Positions 44,504 through 54,723 of a DNA stretch of 64,000 nucleotides are shown in pieces. The notes beneath the pieces were generated by a model. The model was not told the DNA's origin. It made no database searches and saw only the letters and a list, made by a program, of their open reading frames with translations. Location: contig JAFXAP010000010.1 of the NCBI GenBank assembly GCA_017516965.1, positions 1-64,000 of the forward strand. Reading direction: 5' to 3'. Numbering within the stretch: position 1 is the first letter of the stretch; every line of letters starts with the position of its first letter. The translations under genes were made by a program, and so were the position numbers. Source of the stretch: Clostridia bacterium (lineage in GTDB: Bacteria > Bacillota > Clostridia > Oscillospirales > Acutalibacteraceae).

Positions 44504-44678
44504 TTTTTACCTCGCAGTAATATTATTTTAGTTAAATATAACATTTTATTATAAAAAAGTCAATCAAATAGGGTTTAAGGCAAATTTTACAATAAAATTA
44601 TTAAAAATATTTGTTAACAATGCCTATGTAAAAAATTTTTTAAAAGTGCTATAATTAGTTAGCAAAGGGGTGAGACGT

Positions 44679-45167
44679 TTGTTTAATATTGGGGACACGG
44701 TAGTTTATGGTGCGCAGGGCATTTGCAAAATAGCGGGTTTTGATACAAAAACAATAGGTAAAGCTGATATTAAATATTATGTTTTAAAACCTATGTTTAA
44801 TGAAAATACAGCAGTATTTGTCCCGGTAGAAAATGCAACGCTTACCGAAAAGATGAAAAGTGTTTTAACCAAATCTCAGGCGGAACAATTAATCTTAAAA
44901 ATTGATGATATAGATGTTATAAAATTTAGTGGCGAAAATCAAAAACGCGAGCAGTATAAGGCTGTGTTGGCAAGTAATGACCGTGAAAAACTTATATCGC
45001 TTATAAAGACAATTCGTCTTGAAAGAGACATTAGGAGAAACAGCGGGAAAAAGCTTAATATAAATGATGAACAGACTCTCAGGAAGGCCGAAACGTTGCT
45101 ATATAATGAGTTGGCGATTGTTTACAATGTAGAGCCTGACAATGTAAAAAATATAATTAAATTTTAA
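44679..45167 (+). CDS. CarD/CdnL-family transcription regulator
   Basis: 162 aa from TTG 44679, giving MFNIGDTVVYGAQGICKI, the standard CarD N-terminus; a GTG at 44670 is the alternative but lies inside the AAAGGGGTG Shine-Dalgarno. The RNA-polymerase-interacting Tudor-like domain covers about residues 1-60 (YYVLKPMFNENTAVFVPVEN) and a helical DNA-contacting C-terminal domain follows. Binds the beta subunit and stabilises open complexes (family knowledge). A TATAAT at 44650-44655 probably serves as its -10. Confidence 0.88.
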   Translation: MFNIGDTVVYGAQGICKIAGFDTKTIGKADIKYYVLKPMFNENTAVFVPVENATLTEKMKSVLTKSQAEQLILKIDDIDVIKFSGENQKREQYKAVLASNDREKLISLIKTIRLERDIRRNSGKKLNINDEQTLRKAETLLYNELAIVYNVEPDNVKNIIKF

Positions 45168-45170
45168 ACC

Positions 45171-45215
45171 AATCGGTGTTTTATGCAGTTTCCATTCATA
45201 AAATGCCGATTTTTT
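45171..45215 (+). terminator. Terminator of the carD-like gene
   Basis: Imperfect stem AATCGGTGTTTTATG / CATAAAATGCCGATT, 10-12-nt loop and T6 tail. It ends 1-2 nt before the aromatic operon promoter. Confidence 0.8.
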
Positions 45216-45216
45216 C

Positions 45217-45245
45217 TTGACAAATGTTAAAAAAGAGAGTAAAAT
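45217..45245 (+). promoter_or_regulatory. Promoter of the aromatic amino acid operon
   Basis: Perfect TTGACA, 17-nt spacer, TAAAAT. Predicted start near 45252, giving a leader of about 200 nt. Confidence 0.93.
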
Positions 45246-45262
45246 TGACCATATATTTTAGA

Positions 45263-45430
45263 GAGGAGACAGATTTTATGTGTTTTAACAGTAATTATTA
45301 CTTTTATTACTTTAATCAGGACTGTCTTACCTCTTTTAAGAAAGCAAATTAATTTGCAACTTAATAGATAAATAGACAGTCCGCAACCGTTTGTGCATAA
45401 AAATGCATTGTACTCGGTTGGCGGATTTTT
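45263..45430 (+). promoter_or_regulatory. Ribosome-mediated attenuator with mutually exclusive hairpins
   Basis: Segment 1: GAGGAGACAG (45263-45272). Segment 2: GGACTGTCT (45319-45327) continuing to CCTC (45330-45333). Segment 3: AGACAGTCC (45374-45382) overlapping TCCGCAACCG (45380-45389). Segment 4: CGGTTGGCGGA (45415-45425) followed by T5. Pairing 3:4 is the terminator (10-11 bp, one bulge). Pairing 2:3 (9 bp, perfect) is the antiterminator. Pairing 1:2 (AGACAG/CTGTCT plus GAGG/CCTC) blocks the antiterminator and hides the leader Shine-Dalgarno. A ribosome stalled at codons 7-12 leaves segment 2 free to pair with 3. Confidence 0.88.
45278..45352 (+). CDS. Tyr/Phe-rich attenuator leader peptide
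   Basis: 24-aa peptide with a strong Shine-Dalgarno (GAGAGGAG) 9 nt upstream. It starts MCFNSN, continues YYFYYF at codons 7-12 and NQDC at 13-16, and ends TSFKKAN; eight of 24 residues are Tyr or Phe. Position between a consensus promoter and a terminator, and the product of the following operon (Phe and Tyr synthesis), identify it as a control peptide. Stalling at the Tyr/Phe cluster when charged tRNA is scarce would expose the antiterminator arm that starts 6 nt after codon 12. Confidence 0.9.
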   Translation: MCFNSNYYFYYFNQDCLTSFKKAN

Positions 45431-45453
45431 CACTTTAATAGGAGATGAAAGAT

Positions 45454-46638
45454 ATGATAAACAAATCAATGGCAGACCTTGGAAATCAACCCTCAGTGAT
45501 TAGAGAAATATTTGAATATTCACTTAAACGCAAAGCGCAGATAGGAGCAGAAAACGTATATGATTTCAGCCTTGGAAATCCAAGCATACCTGCACCTAAA
45601 ATTGTGGATGATACTATAAAAGAATTGGTAGAGTCGGGTGACAGCGTTGCGCTTCACGGTTACACTTCGGCTCAGGGCGCAATGCCTGTAAGAGAGCAGA
45701 TTGCCGCAAATATTAAAAGCCGTTTTAATTTCCCCGCCAGTGCAAAAAATATTTACATTACCTGTGGCGCGGCGGCATCGCTTACCTCTACATTAAAAGC
45801 AGTGGTAAACGACGGTGACGAGGTTATACTGTTGGCGCCGTATTTTCCCGAATATAATGTTTTTTGCGCAAATGCAGGCGCTAAGACAGTAGCAGTGCTT
45901 GGCACAGGCGATAATTTTTCACTTGACTTTGACGCGCTTGACAAGGCTATAAATAAGAACACTGCGGCAATTATTGTCAACTCGCCTAATAATCCAACCG
46001 GCGCCATAATTCCTGAAAGCGATATTATAAAACTTGCTTCTTTGCTTAATAGAAAAGGTAAGGAACTGGGCCGTGCAATTTATATTATTGCAGACGAGCC
46101 ATATCGTGAGCTTACATACGGCGATGATGTGCCATATATTCCAAACTTTTATGACAATACTGTGGTTTGCTACTCTTACAGCAAATCATTATCGCTTCCC
46201 GGTGAGCGTATCGGTTATGTGTTTGTTTCACCAAATTGTGAAGATAGTGACGACTTGTTTGCGGCGGTTTGTGGCGCGGCTCGCAGTATGGGCTACGTTT
46301 GCGCTCCAAGTCTTATGCAACGTGTAATTGCCAAGTGCGACGGCAAGACCAGCGACGTTTCACTTTACAATAAAAATCGCGAATTGCTCTATAATTCGTT
46401 AAGTGAAATCGGTTATCAGGCAGTAAAACCACAGGGCGCGTTTTACCTTTTTATGAAGGCGCTCGAAGAAGATGCAAATGCCTTTTGTGAGAAGGCTAAA
46501 AAGCACGAGTTGTTACTGGTGCCTGCCGATAGTTTTGGGGCTAAAGGCTATGTTAGAATTTCTTATTGCGTATCGTATGATACCATAAAAAATTCTATCC
46601 CGGCATTTAAAGCTCTGTTTGAAGAATATAAAAAATAG
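45454..46638 (+). CDS. Class I/II PLP-dependent aminotransferase (aromatic operon)
   Basis: 394 aa from ATG 45454, 9 nt after AGGAG; ATG 45445 directly abuts the AGGAG and is unlikely. Fold-type I aminotransferase: FSLGNPSIPAPK, CGAAASLTSTLKAVV, NSPNNPTGAI, ADEPYRELTY, and the PLP lysine in YSYSKSLSLPGERIGY. As first gene of the aromatic operon it probably converts phenylpyruvate/4-hydroxyphenylpyruvate to Phe/Tyr (inference from context); AspC-type activity is possible. Confidence 0.9.
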   Translation: MINKSMADLGNQPSVIREIFEYSLKRKAQIGAENVYDFSLGNPSIPAPKIVDDTIKELVESGDSVALHGYTSAQGAMPVREQIAANIKSRFNFPASAKNIYITCGAAASLTSTLKAVVNDGDEVILLAPYFPEYNVFCANAGAKTVAVLGTGDNFSLDFDALDKAINKNTAAIIVNSPNNPTGAIIPESDIIKLASLLNRKGKELGRAIYIIADEPYRELTYGDDVPYIPNFYDNTVVCYSYSKSLSLPGERIGYVFVSPNCEDSDDLFAAVCGAARSMGYVCAPSLMQRVIAKCDGKTSDVSLYNKNRELLYNSLSEIGYQAVKPQGAFYLFMKALEEDANAFCEKAKKHELLLVPADSFGAKGYVRISYCVSYDTIKNSIPAFKALFEEYKK

Positions 46639-46659: not shown

Positions 46660-47748
46660 ATGACCGAACTTGAAAAAGCTAGACTGGCTATAAATAATGT
46701 GGACAAACAAATGGCGGAACTTTTTGAGCAGAGAATGGATGCTGCAAGAATTGTTGCCCAGTATAAAAAAGAAAACGGACTTAAAATAGATGATTTTGCG
46801 CGTGAAGAACAGGTTATTTCAAACAATACCGCTCTTATAAAGGATGAGGATTACAAATCGTACTATATCAACTTTTTGCGTGAAACAATAAATCTTTCAA
46901 AACTTTTACAGCACCGTCTGCTTGAAGGTATGCGAGTGGCATATAGCGGTGTTGAGGGTGCTTTTGCCAACATTGTGGCAGAGCGAATTTTCCCCGACGC
47001 TAACTGCGTAGGCTACAAGGATTTTAAAGCGGCGTATGACGCTGTTGTAAACGGAGAATGCGATTGCGCAGTACTGCCTATCGAAAACAGTTTTAATGGT
47101 GACGTTGGCAAGGTTATGGACTTAAGCTTTTTTGGTTCGCTTTATGTAAATGGAATTTATGAAGCTGAAATTGTGCAAAACCTGCTTGGAGTTAAAGGCG
47201 CAAAGCGCGAAGATATTAAAACCGTTATAAGTCACTCTCAGGCGCTTGGTCAATGCGCGTCATACATTGAAGAAAACGGTTTTGAAACGCAAGAGGCGGT
47301 AAATACTGCCGTTGCCGCAAAGACTGTTGCCGAAAGCGGCGATAAAGCCATAGCCGCAATAGGCAGCGCCGAGGCGGCAGAAAAATTTGGCCTTGTAAAG
47401 ATAGAAGCACATATAAATGAAAGCAATCAAAATTCAACCCGATTTGCTGTGTTTTCTCGCAGCGAAAAGGCGCATCTTGCTACCGATAATCACTTTATAA
47501 TGCTCTTTACCGTAAATAATGCGGCAGGTTCATTGGGTAAAGCGATATCTGTAATAGGTGAGCACGGTTTTAATCTTAAGGCGCTTAAAAGCAGACCGAC
47601 AAAAGAACTTGTTTGGGACTATTATTTCTATGCCGAGGGTGAAGGTAATATCGGTAGCGAGCAGGGTGAAAAAATGCTTAAAAAACTATCTGAATGTTGC
47701 TCGAACTTAAAAATTCTTGGTAGTTTTGAAAAGGAGATAAGGGTATGA
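46660..47748 (+). CDS. pheA: Bifunctional chorismate mutase/prephenate dehydratase
   Basis: 362 aa. N-terminal AroQ-type chorismate mutase (about 1-88: LAINNVDKQMAELFEQRMDA, VAQYKK), prephenate dehydratase (about 95-275: AYSGVEGAFANIVAE, PIENSFNGDVGKV, NSTRFAVFSR), then an ACT regulatory domain (about 280-360: AAGSLGKAISVIGEHGFNLK, ALKSRP) for phenylalanine feedback. Ends 4 nt into aroB. Confidence 0.96.
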   Translation: MTELEKARLAINNVDKQMAELFEQRMDAARIVAQYKKENGLKIDDFAREEQVISNNTALIKDEDYKSYYINFLRETINLSKLLQHRLLEGMRVAYSGVEGAFANIVAERIFPDANCVGYKDFKAAYDAVVNGECDCAVLPIENSFNGDVGKVMDLSFFGSLYVNGIYEAEIVQNLLGVKGAKREDIKTVISHSQALGQCASYIEENGFETQEAVNTAVAAKTVAESGDKAIAAIGSAEAAEKFGLVKIEAHINESNQNSTRFAVFSRSEKAHLATDNHFIMLFTVNNAAGSLGKAISVIGEHGFNLKALKSRPTKELVWDYYFYAEGEGNIGSEQGEKMLKKLSECCSNLKILGSFEKEIRV

Positions 47749-48746
47749 TAATACCTGTAAAAACTGCAGGTGGCGGATACAACATATATTTGGAACGCGG
47801 CGCAATAGGCAAAGCTGCCCAGTATTTTAATCTTGACCGCAAGGTGCTTATCGTCACCGATGACGGAGTGCCTGAGTCTTACGCTAAAACTGTAGCCGCA
47901 CAATCAAAGCAGTCGATGACGGTTGTCTTTGCTCAGGGTGAGGCATCTAAAAATTTTGATACCTATAAAAGCATACTTGAAGCTATGACAAAGAGTGCTT
48001 TTACGCGTACCGATTGTGTCGTTGCAGTAGGCGGTGGCGTTACAGGTGATATGGCGGGTTTTGCGGCGGCTACATTTATGCGTGGCATCGATTTTTACAA
48101 TATACCCACTACCGTGCTTTCTCAGGTCGATTCATCGGTAGGTGGTAAGACAGCCATTGATTTTGGTGGGTTTAAAAATATTGTAGGCGCTTTTCATCAA
48201 CCAAAGGGTGTAATAATTGACCCTGACACTCTAAAAACTTTGCCACAGCGACAAATTTCTAACGGACTTGCCGAATCGGTAAAAATGGCGCTCACACACG
48301 ATGCAGAACTTTTTGCTATGTTGGAGAGCAATGATTTTGATATTGATACGGTAATTGAGCGTTCAATAAAAATTAAACGCTCGGTCGTCCAGAATGATGA
48401 AAAGGAATCGGGGCTTCGCAAGGTGCTTAATTTTGGTCACACAGTAGGCCACGCCATTGAAAGCAACACACCAAGTCTTTATCACGGCGAATGTGTAGCC
48501 CTTGGTATGTTGCCAATGTGTAGCGAGAGTGTAAGAGCAAGACTTGTTCCGGTTCTTAAAAAACTAAATTTACCTGTGTCAGTAGATTGTGACACACAAA
48601 AAATAATTGACACTATGAGCCACGATAAAAAAATGGCAGGAGATATAATTTCGGTAATTCGTGTAGAAAATGTCGGAACATTTGATATAACAGAACTTCA
48701 ATTTGCAGATTTTGCAGATGAAATAAAGGCGGTGTATGAAAATTGA
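47745..48746 (+). CDS. aroB: 3-dehydroquinate synthase
   Basis: 333 aa, somewhat short but complete. NAD-dependent second step of the shikimate pathway. Motifs: VAVGGGVTGDMAGFAAATFM, IPTTVLSQVDSSVGGKTAID, GFKNIVGAFHQPKGV, NFGHTVGHAIE and YHGECVALGM (zinc ligands). Overlaps pheA and aroC by 4 nt each. Confidence 0.96.
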   Translation: MIIPVKTAGGGYNIYLERGAIGKAAQYFNLDRKVLIVTDDGVPESYAKTVAAQSKQSMTVVFAQGEASKNFDTYKSILEAMTKSAFTRTDCVVAVGGGVTGDMAGFAAATFMRGIDFYNIPTTVLSQVDSSVGGKTAIDFGGFKNIVGAFHQPKGVIIDPDTLKTLPQRQISNGLAESVKMALTHDAELFAMLESNDFDIDTVIERSIKIKRSVVQNDEKESGLRKVLNFGHTVGHAIESNTPSLYHGECVALGMLPMCSESVRARLVPVLKKLNLPVSVDCDTQKIIDTMSHDKKMAGDIISVIRVENVGTFDITELQFADFADEIKAVYEN

Positions 48747-49837
48747 AAAACACCATAGGCAATTCACTTACAGTTACCTTGTTTGGTGAGAGTCACGGCA
48801 AGGCTATCGGCGCGGTTATAGACGGTATCTCGTCAGGAATTAAGGTTGACGAAGACTATATTGCCAATATGCTCTCCCGTCGCAGACCAAAGGACGCGCT
48901 GTCTACACCCCGTCAGGAAAGGGACGAATTCAGCATTTTAAGCGGTGTTTTTGAAGGCTATACCACAGGTACGCCAATTTGCATTTCAATTCCTAATGCC
49001 GACACACACTCATCTGATTACGGTCAGATGCAATATAAAATGCGACCTTCCCACGCCGACTATACTGCAAACTGTCGTTATAACGGTTTTCAGGATTACC
49101 GAGGCGGCGGACATTTTAGCGGCAGAATAACTGCGGCGCTTGTAGCGGCAGGAGCGATAGTGTTACCAGCCCTTAATAAAAAAGGGATTTATATTGGTAC
49201 GCATATAAAAAGTATTGCAGGAATCAATGATATTGATTTTACAAATAATAAGGAAATTATTGATATTTCTAAAAAAGATTTTCCTGTTTTAGATGAAACT
49301 GCAAAAGACAAAATGCAGCAAAAAATCCTTGAGGCAAAATCACAGGGCGACAGCGTTGGCGGTGTGCTTGAAACGGCGATTATCGGTCTGCCTGCCGGTG
49401 TAGGTGAACCCTGGTTTGATACGGTAGAGGGTATGCTGTCTCACGCAATCTTTTCGGTTCCTGCTGTAAAGGGAATTGAGTTTGGTTTGGGATTTGATTT
49501 TGCCGATAAATGTGGAAGCCAAGCCAATGACCAGATGTATGTAGATGGTGATAGCGTTAAATGCTACACCAACAATAACGGCGGTGTAATTGGTGGCATT
49601 ACAAATGGAATGCCGATTGTTTTTCGCGCTGTTATTAAACCCACACCAACAATCTCTAAAGAGCAGAAAACCGTTGATATAAACACTATGAGCGATACAA
49701 CCCTTGAGGCGCGTGGCAGACATGACCCCTGCATTGCGCACAGGGCGGCTGTTGTGGTTGAAAGTGTGGCGGCGCTTGTTATTGCCGATATGCTTACTAC
49801 AAAATTTGGAACAGCCTGGTTGGCAAAGTTTGAGTAA
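48743..49837 (+). CDS. aroC: Chorismate synthase
   Basis: 364 aa from TTG, overlapping the aroB TGA. Final step to chorismate using reduced FMN. Signatures GESHGKAIGAVIDG, RRPKDALSTPRQERDEF, SHADYTANCRYNGFQDYRGG, GGISNG-like GGITNGMPI, and RHDPCIAHRAAVVVESV. Alternative starts are unlikely because of the coupling. The 127 nt after its stop contain no gene. Confidence 0.96.
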   Translation: MKNTIGNSLTVTLFGESHGKAIGAVIDGISSGIKVDEDYIANMLSRRRPKDALSTPRQERDEFSILSGVFEGYTTGTPICISIPNADTHSSDYGQMQYKMRPSHADYTANCRYNGFQDYRGGGHFSGRITAALVAAGAIVLPALNKKGIYIGTHIKSIAGINDIDFTNNKEIIDISKKDFPVLDETAKDKMQQKILEAKSQGDSVGGVLETAIIGLPAGVGEPWFDTVEGMLSHAIFSVPAVKGIEFGLGFDFADKCGSQANDQMYVDGDSVKCYTNNNGGVIGGITNGMPIVFRAVIKPTPTISKEQKTVDINTMSDTTLEARGRHDPCIAHRAAVVVESVAALVIADMLTTKFGTAWLAKFE

Positions 49838-49964
49838 ATTACCCATAGCGCCGCTTTTGTGAGGGGCGGTATAAAATATACAGCACCACTCACTACAAGA
49901 TGACACTGTGAACAATTTTCTTTCAAACTATATTTATACTTTAAATCTATGGAAGGTTTATATA

Positions 49965-51203
49965 ATGGAGTACGGATGTATTGGTGAAAAACTGACACAC
50001 AGTTTTTCTAAAGAGATACATAATCTGCTTTTTGATTACGATTATGAAATAAGGGAAATTCCTAAGGGAGAACTTGATGCCTTTATGACCGAAAGGGATT
50101 TTAAGGCCATAAACGTAACCATACCCTATAAGCAGGATGTAATACCTTATCTTGACTGGATTAGTGATACCGCAAAAACTATTGGCGCTGTTAATACAAT
50201 AGTAAATCGTGGCGGTAAACTTTACGGTTATAATACCGATTTTGCGGGTATGACCGCTTTGATAAAAACAAACGGTATACAAGTAAACGGTAAAAGCGTA
50301 TTGGTTTTAGGTAGCGGTGGCACGTCAAAAACTGCGGTAGCGGTGGCAAAAGCTTTAGGTGCAACTATTGTAAAACGTGTATCACGCACAGCGAAAGAAG
50401 ACTGTATTACTTATAGTCAGGCATATAATGACTTTAAAGATGCTCAGGTTATAATCAACACCACACCCTGTGGCATGTACCCTAACATTATCGGTGAACC
50501 AGTAGATATTGACGCTTTTAAAAATTGCGAGGCTTTAGTTGATGCTATTTACAATCCGCTTTGTTCAAATCTTGTAATTAAAGCTAAAATTAGGGGAATC
50601 AAAGCTACGGGTGGACTTTATATGCTGGTGGCGCAGGCGGCATTTGCGGCAGAACTGTTTATAGACACTGCTGTCAGCGAAGAAAAAATCTATGACGTGT
50701 ATAAAAAAATAGTGTCTAGTAAGCGCAACATAGTTCTTACAGGAATGCCATCAAGCGGGAAAAGTACAATTGGTAAAAGACTTGCAAAAGCGCTTGGTAT
50801 GAACTTTGTTGATACTGACACCGAAATTGAAAATGTGGCAGGTAAACCGATTGCTCAAATTTTTAAAGAATCGGGCGAGGGCCATTTCCGCGATATAGAG
50901 TCGGATGTTATTGCCGACGTTTCGGCAAGACAAAATCAGGTTATAGCAACGGGTGGCGGCGCTATTTTACGAGAGCAAAACATAACTCTTTTAAAGGGAA
51001 ACGGCACGGTGTATTTTATTGACAGACCGCTTAAACTGCTAATAACTACCGATGACCGACCACTCTCAAGTAATCGCGACGACCTTATAAAAAGATATAA
51101 TGAACGATATGATATTTACTGCAATACAGCAGATAAACGAGTAGTAAATGACGGCGAAATTAACTCCGTTATAGACACGATAAAGGAAGACTTTTTAAAA
51201 TGA
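49965..51203 (+). CDS. Shikimate dehydrogenase-shikimate kinase fusion (AroE-AroK)
   Basis: 412 aa from ATG 49965 (AAGG upstream); the frame is open from 49908. N-terminal AroE (about 1-245): GEKLTHSFSKEIHN, INVTIPYKQDVIPYLD (catalytic Lys), GAVNTIV, YNTDFAG, NAD(P) loop LGSGGTSKTAV, and GGLYMLVAQAAFAAELF. C-terminal AroK (about 250-412): Walker A TGMPSSGKSTIGK, DTDTEIE, FRDIES, ATGGGAIL and RPL. The fusion channels two successive shikimate steps on one polypeptide. Overlaps aroQ by 4 nt. Confidence 0.94.
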   Translation: MEYGCIGEKLTHSFSKEIHNLLFDYDYEIREIPKGELDAFMTERDFKAINVTIPYKQDVIPYLDWISDTAKTIGAVNTIVNRGGKLYGYNTDFAGMTALIKTNGIQVNGKSVLVLGSGGTSKTAVAVAKALGATIVKRVSRTAKEDCITYSQAYNDFKDAQVIINTTPCGMYPNIIGEPVDIDAFKNCEALVDAIYNPLCSNLVIKAKIRGIKATGGLYMLVAQAAFAAELFIDTAVSEEKIYDVYKKIVSSKRNIVLTGMPSSGKSTIGKRLAKALGMNFVDTDTEIENVAGKPIAQIFKESGEGHFRDIESDVIADVSARQNQVIATGGGAILREQNITLLKGNGTVYFIDRPLKLLITTDDRPLSSNRDDLIKRYNERYDIYCNTADKRVVNDGEINSVIDTIKEDFLK

Positions 51204-51631
51204 AGATACTTGTAATAAACGGACCTAATCTAAATATGCTTGGTATTCGTGAGCCTGATATTTACGGCAAAAACACATATGACGATTTGTGCGCTCTTAT
51301 TACCGACTATGCCAACATCAAGGGTGTAGAGGTAAAGATTTTTCAATCAAATCACGAGGGCGCGCTTGTTGATGAAATTCAATCGGCATATAAAAACTTT
51401 GACGGTATTGTTATAAACCCTGCGGCGTATACCCACACAAGCGTAGCAATTTTAGACGCTGTTAAATCGGTTGGAATTCCTACTGTCGAGGTGCATATTT
51501 CTGCGGTAGAAACCCGTGAAGATTTTCGCCAGATAAGTTATGTGCGTAAAGCTTGTATTAAAACAATTACAGGTCTTGGTTTTGACGGATACTTAAGGGC
51601 TATCGATACACTTATTGATAACGGGAAGTAA
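51200..51631 (+). CDS. aroQ: 3-dehydroquinate dehydratase, type II
   Basis: 143 aa. INGPNLNMLGIREPDIYG with the catalytic Tyr, FQSNHEGALVDEIQ, NPAAYTHTSVAI, and VEVHIS with the catalytic His. Type II (dodecameric) enzyme; no type I AroD in the operon. Confidence 0.96.
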   Translation: MKILVINGPNLNMLGIREPDIYGKNTYDDLCALITDYANIKGVEVKIFQSNHEGALVDEIQSAYKNFDGIVINPAAYTHTSVAILDAVKSVGIPTVEVHISAVETREDFRQISYVRKACIKTITGLGFDGYLRAIDTLIDNGK

Positions 51632-51633
51632 TT

Positions 51634-52836
51634 ATGACAGTAACTATTAAAAAATCAAAGGCAAACGGCACTGTTGCCGCCCCTGCGTCAAAGTCTATGA
51701 CCCATCGCGCGCTTATTTGCGGCGCGCTATCTGATAAAAGCGTAATTAGTAACGTAGAATACTCTAACGATATTCTTGCAACGCTCGATTGCCTTGCGTC
51801 TCTTGGCGCAATTATAGAAAAAAACGACAATATAATAAACATTGGTGCTCTTAATCCGTTTGAGGAAAAAAACGCAACGCTCGATTGCCGTGAAAGTGGT
51901 AGCACTCTGCGTTTTATGATACCGCTTTGTATGATGTCGGGTAGCAAAATTACCCTTATTGGCAGTAAGCGTTTGTTTGAGCGTAATCTTTCGATTTATG
52001 AAGATATTGCAAAACAGAATAATATTGTGTTTGAAAAGGGCGAGGGTAGTCTTACTGTGTGTGGTAAACTGCGTAGCGGTTACTACAAGGTAGCGGGCAA
52101 CATATCTAGCCAGTTTATATCAGGTTTGCTTTTCGCGCTTCCACTGCTTTCAGGGGAGAGCACCGTAGAAATTACAGGCGAATATGAAAGCGAACCATAC
52201 GTAGATTTAACACTTAAGTCGCTGAGTGATTTTGGTGTAATCATAGAAAAATGCGACCGAATATATAAAATTAAAGGCAATCAGACCTATAAATCACAAA
52301 ATATGACGGTCGAGGGTGATTATTCTAACGCGGCTTTTTTAGACGGCTTTAACCTTTTAGGCGGTAATGTTACAGTCACAGGTCTTGACTGTAACAGTCT
52401 TCAGGGAGACAAAATATATAAACAAATGTATAAGGGATTACAAGATGGTGTGAAGCAGTTTGATTTGTCAAACTGTCCCGATTTAGCGCCGGTTATGTTT
52501 GCTTTGTCGGCACATCTTGGCGGCGCACGTTTTACGGGTACTCGTCGTCTTAAGATAAAAGAAAGCGACCGAGCGCAAGCCATGCAACAAGAACTTAAAA
52601 AGTTTGGTGTAGAGGTTTGTGTTGGCGAAAATGACGTTACCGTATATGGTGGAAAACTTAAAACGCCAAGTGAAAGGCTTTGTGGGCATAATGACCACCG
52701 TATAGTTATGGCGCTTTCTTTGCTTTGCGCTCTTACCGGTGGCAGTATAAATGAAGCCGAGGCGGTGGCTAAAAGTTATCCCGACTTTTTTGATAAAATA
52801 AAATCTCTTGGAATAGTGGTAGAAAATGAATCTTAA
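51634..52836 (+). CDS. aroA: 5-enolpyruvylshikimate-3-phosphate synthase
   Basis: 400 aa. Motifs: APASKSMTHRALICGAL with catalytic Lys, DCRESGSTLRFMIPL, SSQFISGLLFALPL, EGDYSNAAFL, DLAPVMFALSAH, IKESDRAQAMQQELKKFG, and GHNDHRIVMALSLL. LDCRESGSTLRF is followed by a Met-rich stretch rather than the LPG found in class I enzymes. Overlaps tyrA by 11 nt. Confidence 0.96.
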   Translation: MTVTIKKSKANGTVAAPASKSMTHRALICGALSDKSVISNVEYSNDILATLDCLASLGAIIEKNDNIINIGALNPFEEKNATLDCRESGSTLRFMIPLCMMSGSKITLIGSKRLFERNLSIYEDIAKQNNIVFEKGEGSLTVCGKLRSGYYKVAGNISSQFISGLLFALPLLSGESTVEITGEYESEPYVDLTLKSLSDFGVIIEKCDRIYKIKGNQTYKSQNMTVEGDYSNAAFLDGFNLLGGNVTVTGLDCNSLQGDKIYKQMYKGLQDGVKQFDLSNCPDLAPVMFALSAHLGGARFTGTRRLKIKESDRAQAMQQELKKFGVEVCVGENDVTVYGGKLKTPSERLCGHNDHRIVMALSLLCALTGGSINEAEAVAKSYPDFFDKIKSLGIVVENES

Positions 52837-53695
52837 CGAAGTTAAAAATGTATTGATTGTAGGCTTAGGTCTTTTAGGCGGCAGTTATGCCAAGGCACTT
52901 ACCCGAAAGGGTTTTGACGTAAAGGTTATAACTCTTAATCAAGATGATATTGATTACGCATTGTCTGAAGGTTTTATATCGGGCGGTACAACCGTAGTAG
53001 ACCCCGATTTAATAGCTGATTCACAACTGATAATATTTGCGCTTTATCCACACACATTTATTGAGTGGATAGAAACTTACGGAAATCTCATAAAACCCGG
53101 TACGGTTATAACTGATGTTACGGGTGTAAAGGGATGTATTGTAGAGCGTGTACAAAATATGTTGCCTGGCGGTGTCGAGTTTATTTCGGCACACCCAATG
53201 GCAGGTAAAGAAACCTGCGGCGTAAGAAGCGCTGATGATAGTATATTTAAAACTGCAAACTACATTGTAGTGCCTACTAATCGCAATACACCTGACGGCA
53301 TAAGACTTTGTTGCGATTTGGGTCGCGCGCTCGGGTTTAATGATATTTCGAGTCTGACGGTGCGTCAACACGATGAAATGATAGCATTTTTGTCTCAGCT
53401 TACCCACGGTATTGCAATATCGCTTATGTGCGCAAACGGCGACCCTAACCTTGTGAGATATACGGGTGACTCGTTCCGTGACCTTACGAGAATTGCAAAC
53501 ATAAATGACGAAATGTGGAGTGAGTTGTTTTTAGCCAATCGCGATGCGTTACTTCAGGAAATGGATGGCTATCGCGATGCGTTTAATCGACTTTACGACA
53601 CAATAAAAGCGGGTGACCGCGAGGCTATGCGCGATATGATGAGACTGTCAAGCGCCAGAAGAAAGACATTTAACGAGGGTGAAAAACTGATATGA
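52826..53695 (+). CDS. tyrA: Prephenate dehydrogenase
   Basis: 289 aa. NAD loop VGLGLLGGSYAKAL, TDVTGVKG, SAHPMAGKETCGVRSAD, and QLTHGIAISL. Converts prephenate to 4-hydroxyphenylpyruvate for Tyr. No C-terminal ACT domain, so it lacks that feedback module. Start overlaps aroA and end overlaps aroF. Confidence 0.95.
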   Translation: MNLNEVKNVLIVGLGLLGGSYAKALTRKGFDVKVITLNQDDIDYALSEGFISGGTTVVDPDLIADSQLIIFALYPHTFIEWIETYGNLIKPGTVITDVTGVKGCIVERVQNMLPGGVEFISAHPMAGKETCGVRSADDSIFKTANYIVVPTNRNTPDGIRLCCDLGRALGFNDISSLTVRQHDEMIAFLSQLTHGIAISLMCANGDPNLVRYTGDSFRDLTRIANINDEMWSELFLANRDALLQEMDGYRDAFNRLYDTIKAGDREAMRDMMRLSSARRKTFNEGEKLI

Positions 53696-54723
53696 GTATG
53701 GATTTTAAAAGGAAGTTGCCGATTCCGAAAGAGATAAAGGAGCAATACCCCGTAACCGAAAAATTGGCGGCGGTAAAGGCGCAGCGCGACGCCGATATAA
53801 AGGCGGTGTTTAAAGGTGAATCTGACAAGTTTTTGTTAATCATTGGTCCTTGCTCTGCTGACAATGAAGAGGCTGTTCTTGATTATATGGGCAGACTAAA
53901 AAAGGTGGCAGATGAAGTCGATGATAAAATACTTATAATACCGCGTGTTTACACAAATAAACCGCGTACCACGGGTGAAGGTTATAAGGGAATGTTACAT
54001 CAACCAAATCCCGAGGAACAGCCTGATATGCTAAAGGGTATTATTGCTATTCGTGATTTGCATATGAGAGCGCTCAGTGACTATGGTTTTACCTGCGCTG
54101 ATGAAATGCTCTACCCTGAAAACTACCGTTATCTTTCTGATGTTTTAGGGTATGTAGCAATTGGCGCGCGTTCGGTAGAAAATCAACAGCACCGTCTTGT
54201 GTCCAGCGGCATTTCAATACCTGTTGGTATGAAAAATCCAACCAGTGGCGACCTTACCGTTATGATGAACTCAATCAAAGCGGCGCAGACTTCGCACACA
54301 TATTTGTATCGCGGTTGGGAGGTTACAAGTTCTGGTAACGAAACCGCCCACGCAATACTTCGCGGTTATATGGATTTTGCGGGTAGAAATATATCAAACT
54401 ACCATTATGAAGATATTGCGCATCTTTGCGAACTTTATGAAGAATATGGGCTTAAAAATCCATCGGTTATTATTGATGCAAACCATGCAAACTCATCTAA
54501 AAAATATCTTGAGCAGATTCGTATTTCTAAGGATGTCGTTTATAGCCGTAATCATAACAACAACATAAAACATCTTGTAAAAGGTGTTATGATTGAAAGT
54601 TATATTGAAGATGGTGCGCAAAAGATTGGTGAGCACATCTACGGCAAATCGATTACCGACCCGTGTTTAGGTTGGGAGAAAACACAAAATCTTATTTATA
54701 AAATCGCAGACAGTCTGGAGTGA
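53692..54723 (+). CDS. aroF: 3-deoxy-7-phosphoheptulonate synthase (AroF/G/H type)
   Basis: 343 aa, type I-alpha as in E. coli: LIIGPCSADNEEAVLDYMG, IPRVYTNKPRTTGEGYKGM, GARSVENQQHRLVSSGI, PVGMKNPTSGDL, DANHANSSKKY, and ESYIEDGAQ. First committed step of the pathway encoded near the end of the operon. Starts inside the tyrA stop (ATGA). Confidence 0.95.
   Translation: MSMDFKRKLPIPKEIKEQYPVTEKLAAVKAQRDADIKAVFKGESDKFLLIIGPCSADNEEAVLDYMGRLKKVADEVDDKILIIPRVYTNKPRTTGEGYKGMLHQPNPEEQPDMLKGIIAIRDLHMRALSDYGFTCADEMLYPENYRYLSDVLGYVAIGARSVENQQHRLVSSGISIPVGMKNPTSGDLTVMMNSIKAAQTSHTYLYRGWEVTSSGNETAHAILRGYMDFAGRNISNYHYEDIAHLCELYEEYGLKNPSVIIDANHANSSKKYLEQIRISKDVVYSRNHNNNIKHLVKGVMIESYIEDGAQKIGEHIYGKSITDPCLGWEKTQNLIYKIADSLE

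Follow-up and report, generated by a model that had tools for sequence, protein, structure and literature searches.

A predicted Tyr/Phe leader-peptide attenuator upstream of an aromatic amino acid operon in gut Clostridia

Textbook attenuation is an Escherichia coli story, and the amino acid genes of Firmicutes are usually credited to T-boxes and TRAP. In the E. coli trp, phe, and his leaders the antiterminator overlaps the terminator, and segment 2 of trpL is located after the leader stop codon. Within Firmicutes, leader attenuators are on record for the His leaders of hisS paralogs (PMC2965389), for his operons (PMC9413887), and for the ilv-leu leader of Staphylococcus aureus, which has genetic support from suppressor mutations (PMC5794164). 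Closer in gene content is uORFC-13-1, which lies before aroF in Acholeplasma and is a predicted Phe-containing uORF beside a terminator; its published description gives 24 sequences, from Acholeplasma and environmental DNA, and names at least one Phe codon (PMC8632094). As far as these descriptions go, uORFC-13-1 is the nearest published analogue that we found of the Clostridia leader reported here.

This leader lies in a 64,000-nt stretch of DNA (the window, meaning the whole stretch that was analyzed) on contig C7 of a 1.62-Mb genome. The genomes closest to that one in the collection searched belong to uncultured Clostridia/Oscillospiraceae, most of them from ruminant guts. The leader shares with E. 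coli trpL, pheL, and hisL a short leader ORF, tandem control codons, and matching biosynthetic genes. We conclude from comparative sequence analysis that it very probably attenuates transcription through a translating ribosome that reads the charging of tRNA-Tyr and tRNA-Phe.

Leader and operon in the window

Features of the locus are collected in Table 1. As read from family matches, the nine-gene operon downstream of the leader represents the whole shikimate plus Phe/Tyr pathway, with the names of pheA, aroE-aroK, aroA, and tyrA being best NCBIfam matches that all fall below the cut-offs, the first two of them having Pfam matches as well. The start of the aminotransferase is given as the ATG of the ORF list, and relatives compared by eye suggest that it is perhaps the ATG at 45454. 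Upstream of the leader, the T-run of the terminator of the CarD-like gene directly adjoins the -35 box TTGACA at 45217.

Table 1. Features of the leader and the aromatic operon (positions in the window)
Feature	Position	Strand	Remarks
CarD-like gene	44670-45167		Upstream of leader promoter
Intrinsic terminator belonging to the CarD-like gene	45171-45216	+	Fold -16.1 kcal/mol, z -5.9, 0/200 shuffles
Sigma-70-type promoter, TTGACA-17-TAAAAT	45217-45245	+	
Segment 1, anti-antiterminator left arm	45256-45272	+	Overlaps leader Shine-Dalgarno GAGGAG, 45263-45268
Leader ORF, 24 codons + TAA, MCFNSNYYFYYFNQDCLTSFKKAN	45278-45352	+	Kept in relatives
Control codons 7-12, Tyr-Tyr-Phe-Tyr-Tyr-Phe	45296-45313	+	
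Segment 2, antiterminator left arm	45319-45327	+	Within codons 14-17
1:2 hairpin right arm	Part of segment 2, plus 45330-45342	+	
Segment 3, antiterminator right arm	45374-45382	+	Overlaps terminator 5' arm
Segment 3:4 intrinsic terminator and U-run	45378-45430	+	Covariation in 30 aligned relatives
PLP-dependent aminotransferase, first gene	45445-46638	+	NF005305, 549 bits
pheA, chorismate mutase/prephenate dehydratase	46660-47748	+	Pfam PDT and CM_2; NCBIfam matches below cut-offs
aroB	47745-48746	+	TIGR01357
aroC	48743-49837	+	TIGR00033
aroE-aroK fusion, one ORF, shikimate dehydrogenase and shikimate kinase	49908-51203	+	Pfam Shikimate_dh_N and SKI; NCBIfam matches below cut-offs
aroQ, type II 3-dehydroquinate dehydratase	51200-51631	+	TIGR01088
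aroA, EPSP synthase	51634-52836	+	271.5 bits versus TIGR01356 cut-off of 287.25
tyrA, prephenate dehydrogenase	52826-53695	+	Family matches below cut-offs
DAHP synthase, AroFGH type	53692-54723	+	TIGR00034

Most of the parts proposed in an earlier, sequence-only reading of the leader hold up. The promoter, described there as a consensus one, agrees with the consensus at 11 of 12 positions; the short ORF does encode YYFYYF at codons 7-12; and the antiterminator is a perfect 9-bp match as claimed, with segment 2 (GGACTGTCT) being the exact reverse complement of segment 3 (AGACAGTCC). The overlapping terminator is likewise present, as a hairpin of -22.0 kcal/mol (z -4.0; 0/200 shuffles as good) with TTTTT after it at 45426-45430, and the whole leader (45250-45440) folds with a z of -4.8, a value that 0/200 shuffles reach. 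A simple consensus terminator scan did not report the 3:4 hairpin, presumably because its loop and bulge are beyond the limits of the scan. The remaining proposal, a 1:2 hairpin that reuses AGACAG, was right as to the hairpin, but AGACAG by itself is too short; the arms extend from about 45256-45272 to 45322-45342 and include the Shine-Dalgarno GAGGAG. The overlap of segment 1 with the ribosome-binding site of the leader is a trait absent from that reading. Folded from its own sequence, the 1:2 hairpin has a z of -2.1 with 8/200 shuffles as good, and support for it comes from relatives.

Among all 4227 families of Rfam release 15, searched at gathering score, the whole window matches only a tRNA, and the best match to 45150-45500 is a thermometer on the other strand (E 0.75). 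The T-box model (RF00230) has eight matches in the genome, six of them over the cut-off (contigs C4, C5, C8, C9, and C15; L199-L206), which precede trpB, pheS, asnS, thrS, ileS, a 2-isopropylmalate synthase-like gene, and two further loci; it has no match at the aromatic operon leader and none on contig C7. Judging by these matches, T-box and leader-peptide sensing of tRNA probably coexist in this genome.

The leader in related genomes

Covariance model R1, built on the 30 leaders of alignment A1, finds a match in 52 of 70 genus genomes, of which about 29 supplied leaders to the model, and thus match by construction, and about 23 supplied none; the other 18 genus genomes have no match in this search. 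At completeness of at least 90% and contamination of at most 5%, the figure is 30 of 39 genus genomes. The aminotransferase was found in 50 of 61 genus genomes. Twenty-six of 300 family genomes match, 24 of them with a leader ORF; four of these belong to the same genus, and the remaining 20 come from 14 further genera. Order, class, and phylum were searched with a second model, R2, at E 0.01 or better, giving matches in 36 of 345, 16 of 341, and 4 of 249 genomes, respectively; the sets overlap and include the genome of the window itself, and the counts of these large searches are lower bounds because 8 to 11 candidates were scored per genome. When 40 family genomes were searched more fully, with 70 candidates each, still only two had a match, our own genome and G096. 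Two of the phylum matches are outside the class, with E values of 0.006 to 0.009. Distribution outside the genus is patchy. We looked through 33 loci from the order and class searches, and 30 have the same kind of leader ORF and downstream aromatic genes; these span nine other families (f15, f16, f17, f19, f20, f21, f23, f34, and f40), and one of them (L236) has Phe but no Tyr.

Several candidates were set aside. Class loci L237-L239 (E 0.001-0.004) have no aromatic gene, and a leader ORF is missing from three weak family matches (G336:C63, G102:C10, and G074:C44; E 0.004-0.008), with G102 and G074 also giving no match with R2. Short Tyr/Phe ORFs upstream of Mogibacterium aminotransferases (VQYFYFFVSE and the like; L074, L080, L086, and L087) were judged to be chance occurrences, because they lack the sequences of segments 2 and 3 and are repeated within an apparent neighboring gene. 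Apart from these, G037 has a further match on C177, weak at E 0.0065.

We examined 75 of the 76 distinct genus and family matches, and 72 have an in-frame, Tyr/Phe-rich leader ORF, so that conservation of the Tyr/Phe run in relatives, named in the sequence-only reading as a check, is observed. Four of the 72 leaders reach the end of the contig before any recognized gene; the other 68 are all followed by an aromatic gene, namely the aminotransferase (54), pheA (8), DAHP synthase (5), or tyrA (1), the last being the first recognized gene in G245, 1,026 nt downstream. In three genomes (G003, L027; G013, L020; G056, L017) the leader is located elsewhere, before pheA-aroB. Because the first gene varies and the leader is found before pheA-aroB at these other places, it is tied to the aromatic operon and not to one gene, and it appears to behave as a portable regulatory module, kept whichever gene comes first in the operon. 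We also note relatives in which the aminotransferase has no leader before it (L012, L017, L020, L027, L029, and L031), being directly 3' of another gene in L017, L020, L027, and L029.

A promoter matching at least 10 of 12 consensus positions, with its -10 box ending 27 to 47 nt 5' of the leader start, precedes 70 of the 72 genus and family leaders, versus 2.9% of shuffles; with the box so close, the leader has a 5' UTR that hardly extends beyond segment 1. After reduction of the 72 leaders to 53 non-redundant ones, the best 6-codon windows contain Tyr or Phe at 283 of 318 codons in frame versus 84 and 64 in the shifted frames, a count biased upward by selection of the window for in-frame aromatics. 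This difference, with its bias, disfavors conservation of a nucleotide T-run in place of codons. The 53 peptides have 198 Tyr, 215 Phe, and no Trp among 1,232 residues, and in a larger set of 102 leaders there are 766 Tyr and Phe (380 and 386) among 2,334 residues, with a single Trp in the tail of L234. Trp-specific control seems to be separate, with a T-box match before trpB in the same genome.

Pairing between segments and a recurring CGA codon

To compare the arms of the 53 leaders free of alignment, cognate partners were set against swapped ones; for 1:2 this swap test was used in place of alignment columns because the 1:2 register shifts between leaders. Cognate arms pair better for both 1:2 (mean of -16.6 versus -12.4 kcal/mol) and 2:3 (-18.6 versus -15.5 kcal/mol), and 0/20,000 permutations do as well in either case. 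The cognate partner is the best of 53 in 10 rows for 1:2 and in four for 2:3, with median ranks of 5 and 7, so the signal lies in the averages. The Shine-Dalgarno part and the spacer part of 1:2 each give 0/20,000 when taken alone; a mock arm, consisting of the codons before the control run, also pairs slightly better with its cognate (341/20,000), and part of the 1:2 signal may therefore be common composition or ancestry. Against shuffled arms, z is below -1.64 in 38 leaders for 1:2 and in 45 for 2:3. A terminator is found in all 53, and the alternatives overlap, 1:2 with 2:3 by at least 4 nt in 51 leaders and 2:3 with 3:4 by at least 3 nt in 51.

In the alignment columns of the 30 relatives, the terminator has 38 double-change cells and a covariation score of 0.331, each unequaled in 500 shuffles, with pairs changed on both sides (62/500) and pair types (488/500) not above shuffles. 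The 2:3 core is mostly invariant, and its 82.7% of paired cells is reached by 202/500 shuffles; it exceeds shuffles only in double-change cells and covariation score (8/500 each). Sliding the 2:3 partner cuts the pairing from 82.7% to at most 44.6%. In a listing of 44 of the 53 leaders, where the segment 3 anchor of G013 is misplaced, compensation can be seen by eye, for example between GGACTGTC/GACAGTCC and GGGCTGTC/GACAGCCC. The check on compensatory pairing in relatives that the sequence-only reading named thus speaks for the attenuator: cognate arms outdo swapped ones and the terminator covaries, but the antiterminator core is mostly invariant.

Folding of each leader from 20 nt upstream of its start to 36 nt downstream of the control run predicts that the Shine-Dalgarno core is paired with a mean P of 0.80, and with P above 0.5 in 50 of the 53 leaders. 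The same fold gives lower values for E. coli trpL (0.51-0.52), hisL (0.24-0.28), and pheL (0.23-0.49), three controls being few. Given the overlap of segment 1 with the Shine-Dalgarno, formation of the 1:2 hairpin should turn leader translation off. On the assumption that the leading edge of the ribosome is 16 nt beyond the P site, a ribosome stalled at the first control codon would not cover segment 2 in any of the 53 leaders, with a median margin of 9 nt that is geometric only. The distance from the end of segment 2 to the stop codon has a median of 11 nt and ranges from -2 to 34.

Arg-Phe pairs occur 40 times in the 102 leaders, and 37 of them have Arg encoded by the rare codon CGA, distributed over six families (22 in f1, eight in f19, three in f17, two in f34, and one each in f21 and f23; L118, L119, L217, L219, L223, L232, and L236 are examples). 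The exceptions have Arg at the second residue (G065 and L235) or upstream of the run (G245). CGA accounts for 8 of the 48 other Arg codons of the same leaders. When genus and family leaders are thinned to 15 with less than 80% similarity, the Arg codon before Phe is CGA in 14 of 15, versus 54 of 601 Arg codons in genes downstream at the same loci (binomial 3e-14, ignoring kinship). It is 20 or 23 nt before the segment 2 GGxCTG in 10 of the 15, with the motif absent or a distant match in the rest. The Arg residue is not conserved, most other leaders having a different residue there, so the codon itself seems to matter. A search by eye for pairing of the CGA with the terminator found no complement common to every member. 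Among the 36 tRNA model matches in one carrier genome (G052), Arg is represented by anticodons ACG, TCT, CCT, and CCG and not by TCG, in a list that is incomplete in having no tRNA-Asn or tRNA-Ile(GAT); on this list, CGA would fall to the inosine-containing ICG tRNA. Decoding of CGA by inosine wobble is slow, and the CGA before Phe at the control run is possibly a programmed slow codon.

Proposed mechanism and comparison with known leaders

Features expected of an attenuator are present: a Shine-Dalgarno and short ORF with clustered cognate codons, a terminator before the first structural gene, mutually exclusive arms (51/53 for each overlap), a stall position that frees segment 2 (53/53, geometric), and, as judged by position, a place before genes making Tyr and Phe. 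From these parts, their conservation and pairing, and the association with aromatic genes, we infer the following course of events. RNA polymerase would start about 26 nt before the leader ORF, as predicted from the promoter, and a ribosome would begin the leader. With Tyr- or Phe-tRNA scarce, the ribosome would stall on the YYFYYF codons with its leading edge short of segment 2 by 9 nt, the median in relatives, and would part segment 1 from segment 2; 2:3 would then form and keep segment 3 from segment 4, and the operon would be transcribed. With both tRNAs charged, the ribosome would continue, segment 2 would be covered by the ribosome or pair with segment 1 behind it, 3:4 would form, and transcription would end near 45430. 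Short-tail leaders are likely to have segment 2 masked by the ribosome itself. In long-tail leaders, our own included, a ribosome at the stop codon would have cleared the antiterminator arm, so that capture by segment 1 and not masking would have to block 2:3. As segment 1 overlaps the leader Shine-Dalgarno, the 1:2 hairpin should also block further initiation on the same RNA, such that the first ribosome would decide.

Other explanations were weighed against tRNA-sensing attenuation. A TnaC-like arrest peptide, in which the nascent chain would respond inside the ribosome to free aromatic amino acids or to some other ligand, could account for the residue motif [DGV]C[LP], which is present in 75 of 97 leaders and could resemble a conserved peptide. 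The codons of this motif are mostly those of segment 2 (GGACTGYCY), however, so pairing explains it, and Tyr and Phe exchange freely while run length, position, and flanking residues vary; we regard an arrest peptide as improbable. Less probable still is a TRAP-like or riboswitch mechanism, in which a protein or a small-molecule ligand would operate the switch and the ORF would be incidental: a terminator and antiterminator taken alone would fit it, and T-boxes occur in the same genome, but no Rfam family matches at the leader, and the conserved part from the start codon to segment 2 is a Tyr/Phe coding frame with a Shine-Dalgarno and not a structured domain.

The relatives noted above with a leaderless aminotransferase would be in keeping with an ordinary terminator with constitutive partial readthrough and a non-regulatory upstream ORF. 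The mutually exclusive 1:2, 2:3, and 3:4 arms, and the better pairing of cognate than swapped arms, are unexpected in the absence of selection for switching, and we consider this the most improbable of the alternatives. Ribosome-mediated attenuation is the reading that we prefer, and we regard the leader as a known mechanism in an apparently undescribed family with two unusual traits, the overlap of segment 1 with the Shine-Dalgarno and the CGA codon, neither of which the sequence-only reading had picked up. A wider proposal is tentative, and we think it rather less likely to be right than wrong: that these leaders make up a widespread Clostridia attenuator class in which the leader ribosome-binding site is the anti-antiterminator and one ribosome decides for each RNA, with many members having a slow CGA at the edge of the control run that holds the ribosome in place and times it against the polymerase. 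The merged ribosome-binding site and anti-antiterminator, together with the conserved CGA, nonetheless provide concrete hypotheses on ribosome-polymerase timing.

The sequence-only reading had called ribosome-mediated control by Tyr and Phe codons unusual in Firmicutes. This is upheld insofar as we found no Tyr/Phe leader attenuator of Clostridia in the literature searched, which consisted of open-licence papers, but, going by the published descriptions, leader attenuators are reported or predicted for his, hisS, ilv-leu, and aroF genes, and the mechanism is thus not foreign to the group. Like uORFC-13-1, the Clostridia leader has a Phe uORF and a terminator before a DAHP synthase gene; as described, uORFC-13-1 differs in being from another taxon and in having no Tyr run or shikimate operon named. 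The Firmicutes his, hisS, and ilv-leu leaders, by their descriptions, similarly combine a leader peptide with a terminator and antiterminator but concern other amino acids and other operons, and the S. aureus ilv-leu leader is genetically supported, whereas the Tyr/Phe leader is known from sequence. In contrast to the E. coli leaders, that of Clostridia has Tyr and Phe codons together and stands before a whole shikimate and Phe/Tyr operon; its segment 1 overlaps a leader Shine-Dalgarno with more predicted pairing than in trpL, hisL, and pheL, and its segment 2 lies inside the ORF, unlike that of trpL. T-boxes (RF00230) likewise read tRNA charging to control expression, and a set of gut Clostridia appears to run the whole shikimate pathway by codon-sensing attenuation with T-boxes at trpB and pheS in the same cell.
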